From Deltaproteobacteria bacterium (lineage in GTDB: Bacteria; Desulfobacterota; Desulfobacteria; Desulfobacterales; JAFDDL01), in assembly GCA_019310865.1 (NCBI GenBank), contig JAFDDL010000108.1, forward strand, positions 1 through 9,378: a DNA stretch of 9,378 nt, written 5' to 3'. Shown here one piece after another: positions 34-6,450 of this stretch. The notes beneath the pieces were generated by a model. The model was not told where the DNA came from. It saw only the letters and a program-made list of their open reading frames with translations, and did no database searches. The stretch's first letter is position 1. Each line of letters begins with the position of its first letter. The position numbers and the translations under genes were made by a program.

Positions 34-1173
34 TTATTGGTGCTTAAAATGAGGCGGTTTTAGATTGGACCGCCTCGTTTCGAGCGAGAAGTCGAAAGAG
101 ACTGGTCGCTTTGCTTTCTCTGGAATACCAAATCCGTAATACTCCATATAGTCTTTATATTCTTGATAAATACCCTCTGCATTAAAACCATATTCTTCCA
201 GAGAATATTTATGCCGTCCGTATTTCCCCTGCTTATTGTTTTCAAGATAGACCCTCATTTTTTCTTCAAATTCTTTGGTGTATTCAAGGTTAAATTTTTT
301 ATAAATTTTCTTTACCATTGCTATTGGGTTTGAAAATAACTCTTCGTATACACAATCGAATATTTGTCCTTCTTTTTCTGAGTGTTCTTTTCGATAATTG
401 AATGGTACCATTAAACACTTTTCAAAAAGTACCTTAAATAACTGTCCGAACCTATGTTTATCAAAAGAACCATCTTGATCAAATGCGATACACCAGGACT
501 CACCAAGGCGACAAATAGAGGGGAGGGTGACTAACGGATTTCGATGTGTTAACACAACTCTTACATCAGGATATTCATTAAAAATGACGGGAAAACAGGG
601 TGCATAATTTGGTGCTTTGAGCGTCCAGTGCGTCTTGGCAGGTCGATAGGCATCCAACATGGTAAAAAACAGTCGTTCATACCTGAATACAGGGCGCTTA
701 TCTTCAATCTTTAAGAAATGATCCATATAAGCCCTTCCGGCACTTGGGGAGTTTAATACATTCATCCCGTTATGAGAGAGCATGTAGAGGAAGGATTCTT
801 CCTTCTCGACAGCTGAATATAGGTGGGATTCAGAAAATTTCTCTATGAAACCAGGCGCTAAACGAGACAGGGTGGTTACAGCAGCCCCACTATTTTTAAT
901 TCTAGGGTCCTCCAGTGGACTGGCTTGTGAAGTCATCGGCGGTGTCGTTATCTCCACTTCGAAGGTATAAGGAGAGCGTGTGTTTGGGTCTTCACTCATT
1001 AAGCGATGTAGCAGGGTAGTTCCAGAGCGAGGTGAGCCGGTTATTATTACCGGTGCTTTGAACTTTCCGTTAGTTTCTATGAATTCTTTATTTATACACA
1101 GCGTCATAAATAATTGCGCATGCCATTCATGTGGATAACCAGAAAACAGAGGCATTAACCGTAATATGCGCAT
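34..1173 (-). CDS. Sulfotransferase catalytic domain (PAPS-dependent), possibly the 3' part of a split gene
   Basis: This 379-residue frame carries the sulfotransferase fold. The 5'-phosphosulfate loop is GSPRSGTTLLHRL (residues 46-58), followed by DPNTRSPYTFE. The WTLKAPNY strand lies at 183-190, and the 3'-phosphate site RVVLTHRNP...S is at 205-219 (R211, S219). The C-terminal signature KYGRHKYSLEEYGF belongs to the large family of bacterial sulfotransferases acting on unknown acceptors. It would transfer sulfate from PAPS to a hydroxyl or amine group; the acceptor cannot be told from the sequence. ATG 1173 follows an in-frame TAA directly and has no recognisable ribosome binding site, and residues 1-35 do not look like the family. 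This supports a start by translational coupling or a broken gene with the 1127-1570 frame. Base composition is more AT-rich than the respiratory operon, suggesting separate origin. Confidence 0.8.
   Translation of the reverse strand: MRILRLMPLFSGYPHEWHAQLFMTLCINKEFIETNGKFKAPVIITGSPRSGTTLLHRLMSEDPNTRSPYTFEVEITTPPMTSQASPLEDPRIKNSGAAVTTLSRLAPGFIEKFSESHLYSAVEKEESFLYMLSHNGMNVLNSPSAGRAYMDHFLKIEDKRPVFRYERLFFTMLDAYRPAKTHWTLKAPNYAPCFPVIFNEYPDVRVVLTHRNPLVTLPSICRLGESWCIAFDQDGSFDKHRFGQLFKVLFEKCLMVPFNYRKEHSEKEGQIFDCVYEELFSNPIAMVKKIYKKFNLEYTKEFEEKMRVYLENNKQGKYGRHKYSLEEYGFNAEGIYQEYKDYMEYYGFGIPEKAKRPVSFDFSLETRRSNLKPPHFKHQ
51..76 (-). terminator. Terminator-like hairpin overlapping the end of the sulfotransferase gene
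   Basis: A perfect 8-bp stem (GAGGCGGT at 51-58 with ACCGCCTC at 69-76) with a 10-base loop is followed on the minus strand by ATTTT. It lies within the last codons, ending about 15 bases before the TAA. The stem is GC-rich in an AT-rich surrounding, but the T tract is short. Confidence 0.4.
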
Positions 1174-1570
1174 TTAAATCAGACGTCGTGTATAGATGAT
1201 AGTGTTGAAGTACCTTTTTTCGATTTTTCAACCAATTTAATTCAATTTTTTTGATTAATAATCTGCCGACGGTGCAAAGAAATGGGTTATTATCAATACC
1301 ACTGCAAAATGATAATAGGGCCTTTCTCGCTTGTTCCAACTCCTCTTTCGTTCCCAGATATTCATCAAGTGGTGCAGCGCTATCAAACTCCCTTAATAAC
1401 GCGCCCTTTGTCATAAACGGTCGAGAACCAAATAAGCCATAAACACTGTCTATCCATTGAAGTGGTTTTAATAATGCAGAATATTTAACATGATTATTAG
1501 GAAAGCGTTCTGATTGAAAGGGATCACTATTTCGAGGATCTCGTTGATAGTAATTTGACAAGTCAGCCAT
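1127..1570 (-). CDS. N-terminal domain of a sulfotransferase, separate reading frame
   Basis: This is a 147-residue frame. Residues from about 55 to 120 (GALLREFDSAAPLDEYLGTK onward, through FLCTVGRLLIKKIELN) follow the helical N-terminal region that precedes the PAPS-binding loop in bacterial sulfotransferases of about 390 residues (family pattern: L-x-x-A-x-x-TGLDDFG, a helix, then NRLRL). After LQHYH the frame continues for about 26 unrelated residues and stops. The catalytic part lies in the +1 frame, overlapping by 47 bases (34-1173). ATG 1570 has a weak GAGAG ribosome site about nine bases upstream and a promoter candidate further up. Either the gene is broken by a frameshift or rearrangement, or the N-terminal domain is made as a separate polypeptide. 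Confidence 0.6.
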   Translation of the reverse strand: MADLSNYYQRDPRNSDPFQSERFPNNHVKYSALLKPLQWIDSVYGLFGSRPFMTKGALLREFDSAAPLDEYLGTKEELEQARKALLSFCSGIDNNPFLCTVGRLLIKKIELNWLKNRKKVLQHYHLYTTSDLNAHITVNASVFWLST

Positions 1571-4371: not shown

Positions 4372-5739
4372 TTAGTTTTCTCCAACTCTCTGAAAAAGGG
4401 TCCGGAAAATATTATACAGCCCAATAAGCGCCCCGGAAAACAACATGACGCCCAACGAGGCGCGAACCACGTAGTACATGTGGATTTCCGGCAAAAGCCG
4501 GTATACGGTTTCACCATTGAGCCAGGCATTTCCCTGAATCAGTCCGGCGATCGTCAGCACCACCGTAAAGCCAACCACAGCGATGAGCACCAGCCAGTAC
4601 TGAAGGTCCGCCAACAGGCGGCTGAAAAGCGGCTTTCCGGTCACCTTGGGCAGAATGTAGTAGATACCCCCCAGGGCGATCATGCCGGCAAACCCCAGCA
4701 CGCCGATGTGGGCATGGCCCACCACCCAGTTGTTGAAATGGGTCACGCGCTGGACCTGCGGCAGGGACATCATCGACCCTTGAATACTGACGAAAAAGTA
4801 CATGATGGTGCCGGTAAAAACGAATTTGGCCCCGATATCGTTGTGAATTTCACCGAGGCGCCCCTTGGCCGTCAACCAGATATTGATTAAAAACGCCATC
4901 ACCGGAATGACCATGGCCACCGAGTCGACGATGGCAATGACCTTGAGCCAGGTCGGCACGGGCACCTGCAGAAGATGGTGCGTGCCGATATGGGTGTACA
5001 CCACCAGCAATGACCAGAACCCGAGCAGGGATAAGGTATGACTGTATAAGGGGCGTTTTACGGCCCGGGGAATCACGTAATACGCTACGCCGGCCGAAAG
5101 TGGCGTCAGAAGCAGGCCGAACACGTTGTGCCCGTAAAACCACAGCAGGATGGCGTCGGGTATTCCCAGAAGCGCGCCGTTGTCCGGTTGCCAGATCACG
5201 TTTCCCAGGGCATAGGTCGTTGCGGTAAGGATGGCCGCTGCACAGACATACCATACGGAGACGTACAACAGCGGCTCCCGGCGCCGGCGAACGGTCATAA
5301 TGAAGTTAAAGAATACCAGTGAAAACGCCATCACCACAAGGACATCCAGGGGCCAGATCAGTTCGGCGTATTCCCTGCCCTGGGTGTATCCCATGGCCAG
5401 GCTGACCACCACGCCCACCAGGAGCACGTTCCAGGCAACGACCGTAAATACCCCCAGCTTGTCGCTGTAGAGGGGGGTTCGAAGCAGTCGGGGCACGAAA
5501 TAGAATGCGGACCCCAACAGACCCGGCGTGACAAACCCGAACAGCACGATGTTGATGTGAATGGGGCGAATTCTTCCGAAAACCAGCCACCCGATGTTCT
5601 CCGTAACATCGGGCGCCATGAGCTCAATGGCGCCGATAAGGCCCATCAGGGTGCCCACCGTCATCCAGAGCGCAGAGGTGAAAAAAAAGCCTTTGGCCGT
5701 TGAATGGTTGGCCGGGTTTTCTTCAATGCTGTTTTCCAA
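4372..5739 (-). CDS. ccoN: cbb3-type (C-family) cytochrome c oxidase subunit I, CcoN-like
   Basis: This is the catalytic heme-copper oxidase subunit, with 455 residues from TTG 5739 and about twelve hydrophobic helices. The metal ligands are all present: H61 in RPIHINIVLFGF and H344 in GHAHIG (low-spin heme b), H342 (high-spin heme), and H204 in FYGHN with H254/H255 in GTHH (CuB). Y248 stands at the cbb3 cross-linked tyrosine position, which supports O2 reduction rather than NO reduction. From H204 to H344 the spacing equals that of Pseudomonas stutzeri CcoN as I recall it, with a constant offset of three. On that alignment Q320 (SIQGSMM) replaces the conserved glutamate E323 (FEGPMM) of standard cbb3 enzymes. 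EYAEL and WPLDV, another conserved cbb3 stretch, are present. The TAA stop abuts the ATG of the CcoO-like gene. The gene is close to a standard CcoN but belongs to a divergent subgroup. Confidence 0.92.
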   Translation of the reverse strand: MENSIEENPANHSTAKGFFFTSALWMTVGTLMGLIGAIELMAPDVTENIGWLVFGRIRPIHINIVLFGFVTPGLLGSAFYFVPRLLRTPLYSDKLGVFTVVAWNVLLVGVVVSLAMGYTQGREYAELIWPLDVLVVMAFSLVFFNFIMTVRRRREPLLYVSVWYVCAAAILTATTYALGNVIWQPDNGALLGIPDAILLWFYGHNVFGLLLTPLSAGVAYYVIPRAVKRPLYSHTLSLLGFWSLLVVYTHIGTHHLLQVPVPTWLKVIAIVDSVAMVIPVMAFLINIWLTAKGRLGEIHNDIGAKFVFTGTIMYFFVSIQGSMMSLPQVQRVTHFNNWVVGHAHIGVLGFAGMIALGGIYYILPKVTGKPLFSRLLADLQYWLVLIAVVGFTVVLTIAGLIQGNAWLNGETVYRLLPEIHMYYVVRASLGVMLFSGALIGLYNIFRTLFQRVGEN

Positions 5740-5748
5740 ATTCTTCGT

Positions 5749-5758
5749 CCCTCTCCTT
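5749..5758 (-). promoter_or_regulatory. Ribosome binding site supporting a TTG start for the ccoN-like gene
   Basis: AAGGAGAGGG (5758-5749) lies nine bases upstream of TTG 5739. A longer reading from TTG 5772 would translate through this site and into the palindromic element, so TTG 5739 is preferred. Confidence 0.6.
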
Positions 5759-5759
5759 A

Positions 5760-5899
5760 GAAGTGGTTTCAAAGCATTAGCTTATGTTCAATGGCAAGGC
5801 CGCAGCGTTTTTGAAACTCGGACAAGTGTACTATGTCGAGGATTTCAAAAATGCGAGAACGCAGCCATTGGGCATAAGATGAGGTTTTGAAACCTCTTC
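5760..5899. repeat. 140-bp imperfect palindrome flanked by TA: MITE-like element splitting the operon
   Basis: The sequence folds about a centre at 5829/5830 with no gaps: position i pairs with 11659 minus i. About 45 of 70 pairs are complementary, and six more are G-T on the plus strand. Perfect blocks are 5765-5773 with 5886-5894, 5781-5786 with 5873-5878, 5789-5795 with 5864-5870, and 5808-5816 with 5843-5851. The ends read GAAGTGGTTTCAAA and the complement of GAAGAGGTTTCAAA. A TA dinucleotide lies on each side (5758-5759 and 5900-5901), as expected for a TA-duplicating transposon derivative of the IS630/mariner type. Removing the element plus one TA gives AGC-TAA-GGAGAGGG on the minus strand: a stop codon running directly into the ccoN ribosome binding site. 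The palindrome is seen directly; its mobile nature is inferred. A REP-like or regulatory hairpin is the alternative. Confidence 0.78.
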
Positions 5900-6450
5900 T
5901 AGCTGTGACACGCCAACCAGCAGTCTATATTCGCCTTTTTCTCCCGGTGACATTCAACACAAAATCCCATTTGAAATCGGTTCGCCGGGAGGCGGTCCAT
6001 GGTCTCCACCGCGCCATGGCATTGCTCGCAGGCGATTTCCTTTTTGATATGCCGCTGGTGATTGAACAGCACATGTTCGGGCAGATAGTTGACCTTGCGC
6101 CAGGGCGTCGGCGTTCCCGTGTTAAAATACCGGTGCTCCTTTTGAATTTCCGGATGATTGGCAATGATATACTGGTGGCAGTAAAGGCATTTTTCAACCG
6201 GCGCAATACCCGGGTGGATCGACCGCTCCACGTAGGGGTGACAAAACCGGCAGTTGATCGCCTTAACCCCCGCATGCACCCGGTGGCTAAATGCGATAGG
6301 CTGCTCGGGGCCGATCCAGGCCGCCGGCGGCGCATATAAAATCACCAGAAAACCGACAACCAGAAGGGCGCAGGCCGAAACCCATCCGATGGCCATTTTA
6401 TTATCGGCAAAAAATTGCCATCTTTTCCGTGATTCACCTGCTTCGACCAT
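5899..6450 (-). CDS. ActA-like membrane-anchored multiheme cytochrome c (cytochrome c7-like)
   Basis: This 183-residue protein has one N-terminal helix (about residues 20-40) followed by a periplasmic multiheme domain. There are four canonical CXXCH sites: CRFCH (C67), CLYCH (C88), CEQCH (C141) and CVECH (C164). A fifth, non-canonical site, CWLACH (C177, CX3CH), is the penultimate feature before the stop. Paired histidines in FSHRVH and FNHQRH are likely axial ligands, as in ActA and cytochrome c3/c7 proteins. ActA of ACIII is a pentaheme protein of this layout. The expected role is accepting electrons from the quinol-oxidising core and passing them to the monoheme cytochrome or oxidase. ATG 6450 has GGAGG four bases upstream and overlaps the actF stop; an in-frame extension to 6660 is only actF read out of frame. 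The TAG stop is made by the junction with the 5760-5899 palindrome. ActA is usually first in act operons, so its position here is unusual. Confidence 0.88.
   Translation of the reverse strand: MVEAGESRKRWQFFADNKMAIGWVSACALLVVGFLVILYAPPAAWIGPEQPIAFSHRVHAGVKAINCRFCHPYVERSIHPGIAPVEKCLYCHQYIIANHPEIQKEHRYFNTGTPTPWRKVNYLPEHVLFNHQRHIKKEIACEQCHGAVETMDRLPANRFQMGFCVECHREKKANIDCWLACHS

Follow-up and report, generated by a model that had tools for sequence, protein, structure and literature searches.

The question raised by this locus is why a long palindrome stands between the gene for a multiheme cytochrome of an ACIII module, which we take to be ActA/ActE, and the gene for a CcoN-like oxidase subunit, in an operon that is otherwise tightly packed. 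The window, i.e. the whole stretch of DNA that was analyzed, is a 9378-bp contig of an uncultured relative of sulfate reducers, on which the coordinates of the element are given (Table 1). The gap between the two genes measures 159 nt, to be compared with -26, -11, -1 and 0 nt at the four other junctions of the window that were measured, and the TA-flanked imperfect palindrome that a preliminary description had placed here was confirmed by both the sequence and its self-alignment. That description had proposed a MITE-like insertion at TA, which was upheld by many copies found elsewhere and by a TA-bounded empty site in orthologues; it had not noted the resemblance to ERIC, the fold specific to one strand or the stop-codon preference described below.

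Table 1. Features of the junction between the cytochrome and oxidase genes, with positions in the window.
Feature	Position	Strand	Basis or remark
Palindromic element, 140 bp	5760..5899	+ (strand with the family-conserved fold; antisense to the operon)	Self-alignment, fold, model R1
Left TA target copy	5758..5759		On the minus strand, first TA of TAAGGAG (rebuilt stop and ribosome binding site)
Right TA target copy	5900..5901		First two bases of the present TAG stop of the cytochrome
Left terminal inverted repeat GAAGTGGTTTCAAA	5760..5773	+	Sequence and end counts
Right terminal inverted repeat GAAGAGGTTTCAAA	5886..5899	-	Sequence; read from 5899
Core matched full length by ERIC model R3	5780..5882	+	Blocks AAGGC, TATGTCGAGG, AACGCAG
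Multiheme cytochrome gene of the ACIII module	5899..6450	-	TAG stop completed by the element
TAAGGAGAGGG, ribosome binding site of the oxidase gene	5749..5759	-	Like arrangement in L016, L018 and L030
CcoN-like oxidase subunit gene, TTG start	4372..5739	-	Name taken from the earlier reading of the sequence

Together with its TAs (144 nt), the element could be aligned from end to end with its reverse complement (148 columns, 72% identity), so that the repeat, earlier called gapless, is indeed full-length but only approximately gapless; when gaps were disallowed, the arms were 38 nt (82%) and 12 nt (92%). The 14-base ends are identical at 13 of 14 positions, giving the terminal inverted repeats expected of a MITE. 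For the minus strand, the one expected in the operon mRNA, the folding energy is -50.6 kcal/mol, compared with -26.7 ± 3.2 kcal/mol for 200 shuffled sequences, none of which folded as well (z -7.5). Searching positions 5600-6000 against Rfam gave three matches, the best reaching 17.9 bits where the gathering score is 86, and no family at its gathering score.

On the minus strand the cytochrome ends in ...CHS TAG, with the G of the stop codon coming from the element, as had been pointed out earlier. Removal of the element together with one TA leaves the junction TAAGGAGAGGG, i.e. TAAGGAG, with 17 bases between TAA and the TTG start (5739-5737), and the predicted merging of the stop with the ccoN ribosome binding site could thus be read directly. 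Among related loci (107 confirmed, of which the best 80 were kept), relatives free of the insertion showed the same empty site, with the stop merged with the ribosome site, as AATTAAAGGAGAAGC (L016 and L018), AATTAAGGAGAACC (L030) and AGCTAGGAGAAC (L043). The best 120 of 1110 relatives of the cytochrome, itself excluded, were 65-79% identical to it, and the named ones among these were mostly from Desulfobacterales or other deltaproteobacteria. A palindrome without other copies and conserved in all orthologues, which had been named as the outcome that would speak against insertion, was not what we found.

The window palindrome is one copy of a multicopy mobile-element family. The 144-bp query matched 21 of the 39 genomes of the related-loci set (E<=0.01), and, of the 389 genomes examined in the order, 63 contained the exact 16-base end TAGAAGYGGTTTCAAA, with 381 occurrences in all, compared with 3 of a reversed control (summed rows). 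One genome, G274, held 153 end matches with up to one mismatch (control 0), and full-length copies bearing these ends were seen in several genomes. Model R1 gave 104.7 bits on the + strand and 51.0 on the - strand of the window element, this copy belonging to the R1 training set. In G029, G020, G027 (Desulfosarcina widdelii), G019 and others, the same core is enclosed by ends of a second type (B), GTGTCCATCC...; across the phylum, model R2 detected the core in 44 of 148 genomes (E<=1e-5), with at most 28 candidates scored per genome, so that copy numbers are lower bounds.

Size variants were also seen. Longer versions of 154-258 bp carry additional inserts, such as a CCCCGC...GCGGG stem in five copies of G039 (L115, L116, L117, L118 and L129) and a TTCCATCTTCGCGATAGC block in two of G274 (L223 and L234). 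Small palindromes of about 26-50 bp (L345 and L335 at 401; L197:298-347) consist of hardly more than two ends and are possibly deletion products of the element. An element at L365:196-303, which had the top score of all to the ERIC model, carries AAAAAGT...ACTTTTTA-type ends that by eye suggest a third type of end around this core.

For target statistics we used 46 distinct full-length copies, 138-146 bp inside TA, from 11 genomes and the window; 25 of the 46 came from G274, and the copies are therefore not independent. TA was found on the left in 39/46, on the right in 39/46 and on both sides in 34/46, as expected for a TA target duplication, with 12/46 lacking TA on one or both sides; many copies were found by a pattern starting with TA, so that one end of those was selected and the other was free. 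As TA is its own reverse complement, a single copy does not distinguish duplication from a repeat end. The flanks were symmetric: position -6 was T and position +6 was A in 30 copies each, and position -3 was T in 26 copies and position +3 was A in 21.

The stop codon at the window junction proved to be a preferred kind of site. Of 43 distinct copies that are bounded by TA at both ends and have sufficient flanking sequence, 16 had their empty-site TA within a TAA or TAG that terminates an open frame of 80 codons or more (open frames standing in for genes), compared with 34 of 661 nearby TAs (within 150 bp; binomial p 1.7e-10) and with 2.9 copies expected under a null matched for T/A context. 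In 3 of the 43, the empty-site TA lies inside an open frame (TAT). For one stop-codon copy (L245) the left flank was matched in 17 other genomes of the family, of which 13 were read; in all 13 the TA occupies the corresponding position and is completed to a stop by A or G, with no A end within 1 kb, and one of them (L421) has a B-type end a few bases further on. Since TA and the first G of the element together form TAG, the upstream protein is left unchanged. The bias may come from targeting or from survival. Our literature search found no title or abstract opening on a stop-codon preference of such elements. Copies of ERIC at gene 3' ends have been reported, one of them removing a stop codon (excerpts of PMC2759123), as has a Yersinia case (excerpts of PMC10969869).

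A hairpin at this place could also be a regulatory structure, retained here to adjust the relative levels of the two halves of the operon. Gaps of at least 80 nt were found between ActE and CcoN in 40/76 loci, the window included, in contrast to 0/71 between CcoN and CcoO and 0/64 between NrfD1 and ActD, and of the ActE-CcoN gaps of at least 60 nt, 18/42 folded at z < -3, all of which would agree with such a role. The ActD-NrfD2 junction is also long (18/64), however, and the gap fillers between ActE and CcoN are mostly different repeats, differing in sequence. Over the 80 relatives, model R1 matched at this junction in L009 only (41.4 bits), with L010 (17.6 bits) and L041 (16.2 bits) at chance level, and the element elsewhere shows no preferred orientation relative to genes (15 sense against 15 antisense rows). 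We thus hold a regulatory hairpin to be very improbable. The NrfD2-ActE junction was left out of these comparisons, as 31/79 values near 1.6-2 kb were taken for mispaired paralogues. The ActE-CcoN junction often accepts repeats. The notion that it is a special hot spot for palindromes was rejected, the ActD-NrfD2 junction being long too and the difference in strong folds (18/42 versus 4/19) not decisive. The predicted strong hairpin ahead of the ccoN ribosome site could possibly have effects on ccoN, and might uncouple the two halves of the operon, as had been suggested earlier.

Several observations from these loci may be recorded here. In L001 and L005, the 3' side of the cytochrome gene carries, at this stop codon, another TA-bounded palindrome (GCCTTG...CAAGGC), whose middle resembles the element core by eye, though models R1 and R3 gave no match there. 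The junctions of L041, L050 and L009 hold palindromes with GATGGC...-type ends, in the first two with a possible AATT duplication, as judged by eye. L003 has a relative of the element in its ActD-NrfD2 gap (R1, 95.8 bits), and further relatives lie downstream in L011:6041-6183 and L023:5918-6041 (R1, 104.3 and 53.6 bits). Finally, on the minus strand of window positions 34-1570, open reading frames 34-1173 and 1127-1570 overlap in different frames and look like one frameshifted gene, presumably sulfotransferase-like from its GSPRSGTT stretch.

The fold of the element was analyzed over an alignment (A2) of 28 copies, of which G274 contributed 8. Its consensus hairpin comprises 51 pairs, 28 of them changed in both partners, and up to six standard pair types occur at one pair of the inner arm (columns 44-57 with 91-103). 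Paired cells amounted to 93.8% against 77.0 ± 0.7 in shuffled alignments and covariation to 0.498 against 0.189, neither value being reached by any of 500 shuffles, although kinship of the copies inflates these comparisons; structures slid along the alignment paired at most 50.5% of cells. The stem keeps pairing as its sequence turns over.

The fold favors one strand. The + strand folded better than the other in 46/46 A copies with RNA parameters (by a mean of -13.5 kcal/mol) and in 45/46 with DNA parameters, as well as in 29/29 B copies with either; with one copy taken per source, it was better in all 12 sources, in one by just 0.5 kcal/mol. Structures derived without G-U pairs held 42-43 G-T combinations versus 9 A-C, and we trusted these wobble-free counts, as the excess on the structure allowing wobbles (134 versus 17) is biased by the making of that structure, the structure of the other strand giving 50 versus 44. 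In the window the favored strand is antisense to the operon. Over all copies compared with their flanking frames, 15 were sense, 15 antisense, 12 convergent, 6 divergent and 13 not classified, two loci (L127 and L236) being counted on both sides, which when counted once each gives 14 sense and 14 antisense. The orientation of the element to genes is thus random, which makes host use of a transcript an unlikely reason for the strand-specific fold, and a cis-regulatory role read from orientation was rejected on the same ground. A fold kept on one strand, together with random orientation, instead suggests that the element becomes single-stranded at some point of its own cycle; if it were double-stranded throughout, no difference between the strands should be expected.

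We also searched for the mover of the element. Among the matches listed, mostly from draft genomes, there was no transposase with the ends of the element and no autonomous copy. Opposed ends 0.7-4 kb apart do occur, and those read were either neighboring short copies (L113 and L126) or enclosed ordinary genes (G274:C97); a further opposed pair lies in G274:C48. For 16 ends without a partner within 330 bp, the flanking DNA examined held none, except for L345 with its partner 10 bases away, and the unpaired ends gave no indication of being left over from a long autonomous copy. Searches of plasmid, phage and viral collections gave only short weak matches to the element; 9 viral stretches, analyzed with blastn only, held one 24-base match, and 77 further ones had one end each and no opposed pair.

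One candidate for a mover would be a transposase of IS630/Tc1 type, the palindrome then being an ordinary MITE, that is, a deletion derivative of a TA-targeting transposon moved as dsDNA, with its likeness to ERIC due to chance or to convergence of hairpins. The TA target, the inverted ends and the symmetric target consensus all fit, and in the streptococcal element RUP there is a precedent, as RUP is thought to be moved by IS630-Spn1, with ERIC and RUP both described as TA-ended MITEs (excerpts of PMC2229807). The IS630-type partner with matching ends that had been suggested earlier was nevertheless not found, nor was any autonomous copy among the matches listed: DDE_3 was detected in 8/20 carrier genomes, against 13/20 non-carriers, and was undetected in the other 12 carriers tested, including the genome with most copies (draft genomes). 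None of the 22 DDE_3 loci read held an IS630 element with matching ends (GAAGYGGTTTCAAA); one (L376) has an A copy beside and not around it, and 7 others have single ends with two mismatches. A mover of dsDNA would, moreover, leave the one-strand fold unexplained, and we regard this explanation as unlikely. As a separate observation, two B-type copies (L221:782-930 and 1812-1987) lie near a broken IS630 transposase gene in G029.

A REPIN-like element, moved as ssDNA by a RAYT (Y1 HUH transposase), would account for a hairpin with conserved ends, compensatory changes and a strand-specific fold, and REPINs also show compensatory changes (excerpts of PMC3116915). PF01797 was found in 15/20 carriers, but it was also present in 19/20 non-carriers and detected nowhere in G274, and thus did not correlate with carriage. 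Of 22 PF01797 loci from 6 carriers, 21 had no element in the fetched flanks, with L214 having short core pieces, and the linkage to RAYT genes that characterizes REPINs was hence not seen. TA ends are, to our knowledge, not a REPIN trait. We judge this possibility to be less likely still than a derivative of IS630.

The enterobacterial repeat ERIC, long used for typing, is a known element that our family resembles. We took ERIC copies from E. coli chromosomes and plasmid records of eight genera, and built a covariance model (R3) from 15 of 16 aligned enterobacterial ERIC cores, L404 being dropped for an insert; E-values of models R1-R3 are rough. With filters off, over 73 sources (81 kb), R3 scored best on L365 (39.1 bits, E 1e-8), followed by L348, L332, L113 and L112 (29.5-30.6 bits) and the B copy L171 (27.6 bits), and it matched the window copy over its full length with a modest score (22.8 bits, E 6.4e-4). 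All of the top 20 matches were full-length, all in elements and all on the + strand, compared with 14.2 bits for the best match clearly outside an element and at most 14.8 bits in a control of 15 loci with other junction palindromes. Among 14 G274 loci, 5 scored 9.0-11.6 bits and 9 were absent at E<=10; with default filters over 479 kb, R3 found no element, the window copy included, where R1 found three at 95-105 bits. In the reverse direction, the family models scored weakly on ERIC, at the right place and strand, R1 with 9.4 bits (E 0.08) and R2 with 13.1 bits (E 0.02).

The R3 match thus covers the core sequence and fold of ERIC, and the Desulfobacterales family shares its TA ends and TA target; the terminal sequences are unlike those of ERIC (alignments A2 and A4), for which reason we call the family ERIC-like and not ERIC. 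Since largely unpaired blocks (AAGGCG, a GGAG/TGA loop and CAACGCA) agree by eye besides the stem, we read the match of part of the family to the ERIC model as pointing to distant homology rather than convergence. No title or abstract opening on ERIC relatives in Desulfobacterota was found in our literature search.

Considering all of these results, the palindrome is probably a copy of a non-autonomous ERIC-like hairpin family of Desulfobacterota, inserted in the TA of the cytochrome stop codon. Such an element would be moved in trans by some enzyme, passing through a step in which its + strand is single-stranded and folded, as RNA or ssDNA. It would then enter a TA, here that of the stop codon, where the insertion would be tolerated because TA and the first G of the element form TAG, which keeps the end of the gene in place; any influence on the expression of ccoN would be a side effect. 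Much more tentatively, ERIC could be the enterobacterial branch of a superfamily spanning phyla, in which a folded single strand of fixed polarity (RNA or ssDNA) enters TA with a strong bias for stop codons, forming a class distinct from IS-derived MITEs and from REPINs; in that reading, the turnover of the stem sequence may result from one arm being copied from the other during the single-stranded step. ERIC relatives that span a phylum and show far greater turnover of sequence would provide comparative material for finding the mover and a means to test for a single-stranded intermediate, and the stop-codon niche would illustrate how a hairpin element enters tightly packed operons with little damage.

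Compared with known systems, the family shares with RUP of Streptococcus pneumoniae a small inverted-repeat design that targets TA (RUP being 107 bp, with 108 intergenic copies; excerpts of PMC2229807), but RUP ends resemble those of IS630-Spn1 and no IS of matching ends was found for the family, the two being compared by description. The same holds for Correia/NEMIS, likewise a TA-ended MITE, with a transcript stem-loop cut by RNase III (excerpts of PMC2229807) and with another host. REPINs are similar in being hairpin units with conserved ends and compensatory changes between them (excerpts of PMC3116915), and different in being built of REPs and linked to RAYTs, neither of which was shown for the family, which in turn has TA ends. 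From ERIC, which is reported in Enterobacteriaceae and Vibrionaceae (excerpts of PMC10969869), the family differs in host phylum, in its termini, in length (140-145 bp versus 127 bp) and in its G-T excess, the wobble-free structure of ERIC having none (4 versus 6). Both have a similar size, a stem-loop over their length and TA termini with a TA duplication, and for ERIC the mechanism of movement is not known either (excerpts of PMC2229807 and PMC2759123). Both also hold, by eye, the blocks AAGGCG, GGAGCNTAC...GTANGTGA and CAACGCA in the same order and on the same strand, and in both it is the + strand that folds better, for ERIC in 16/16 copies.
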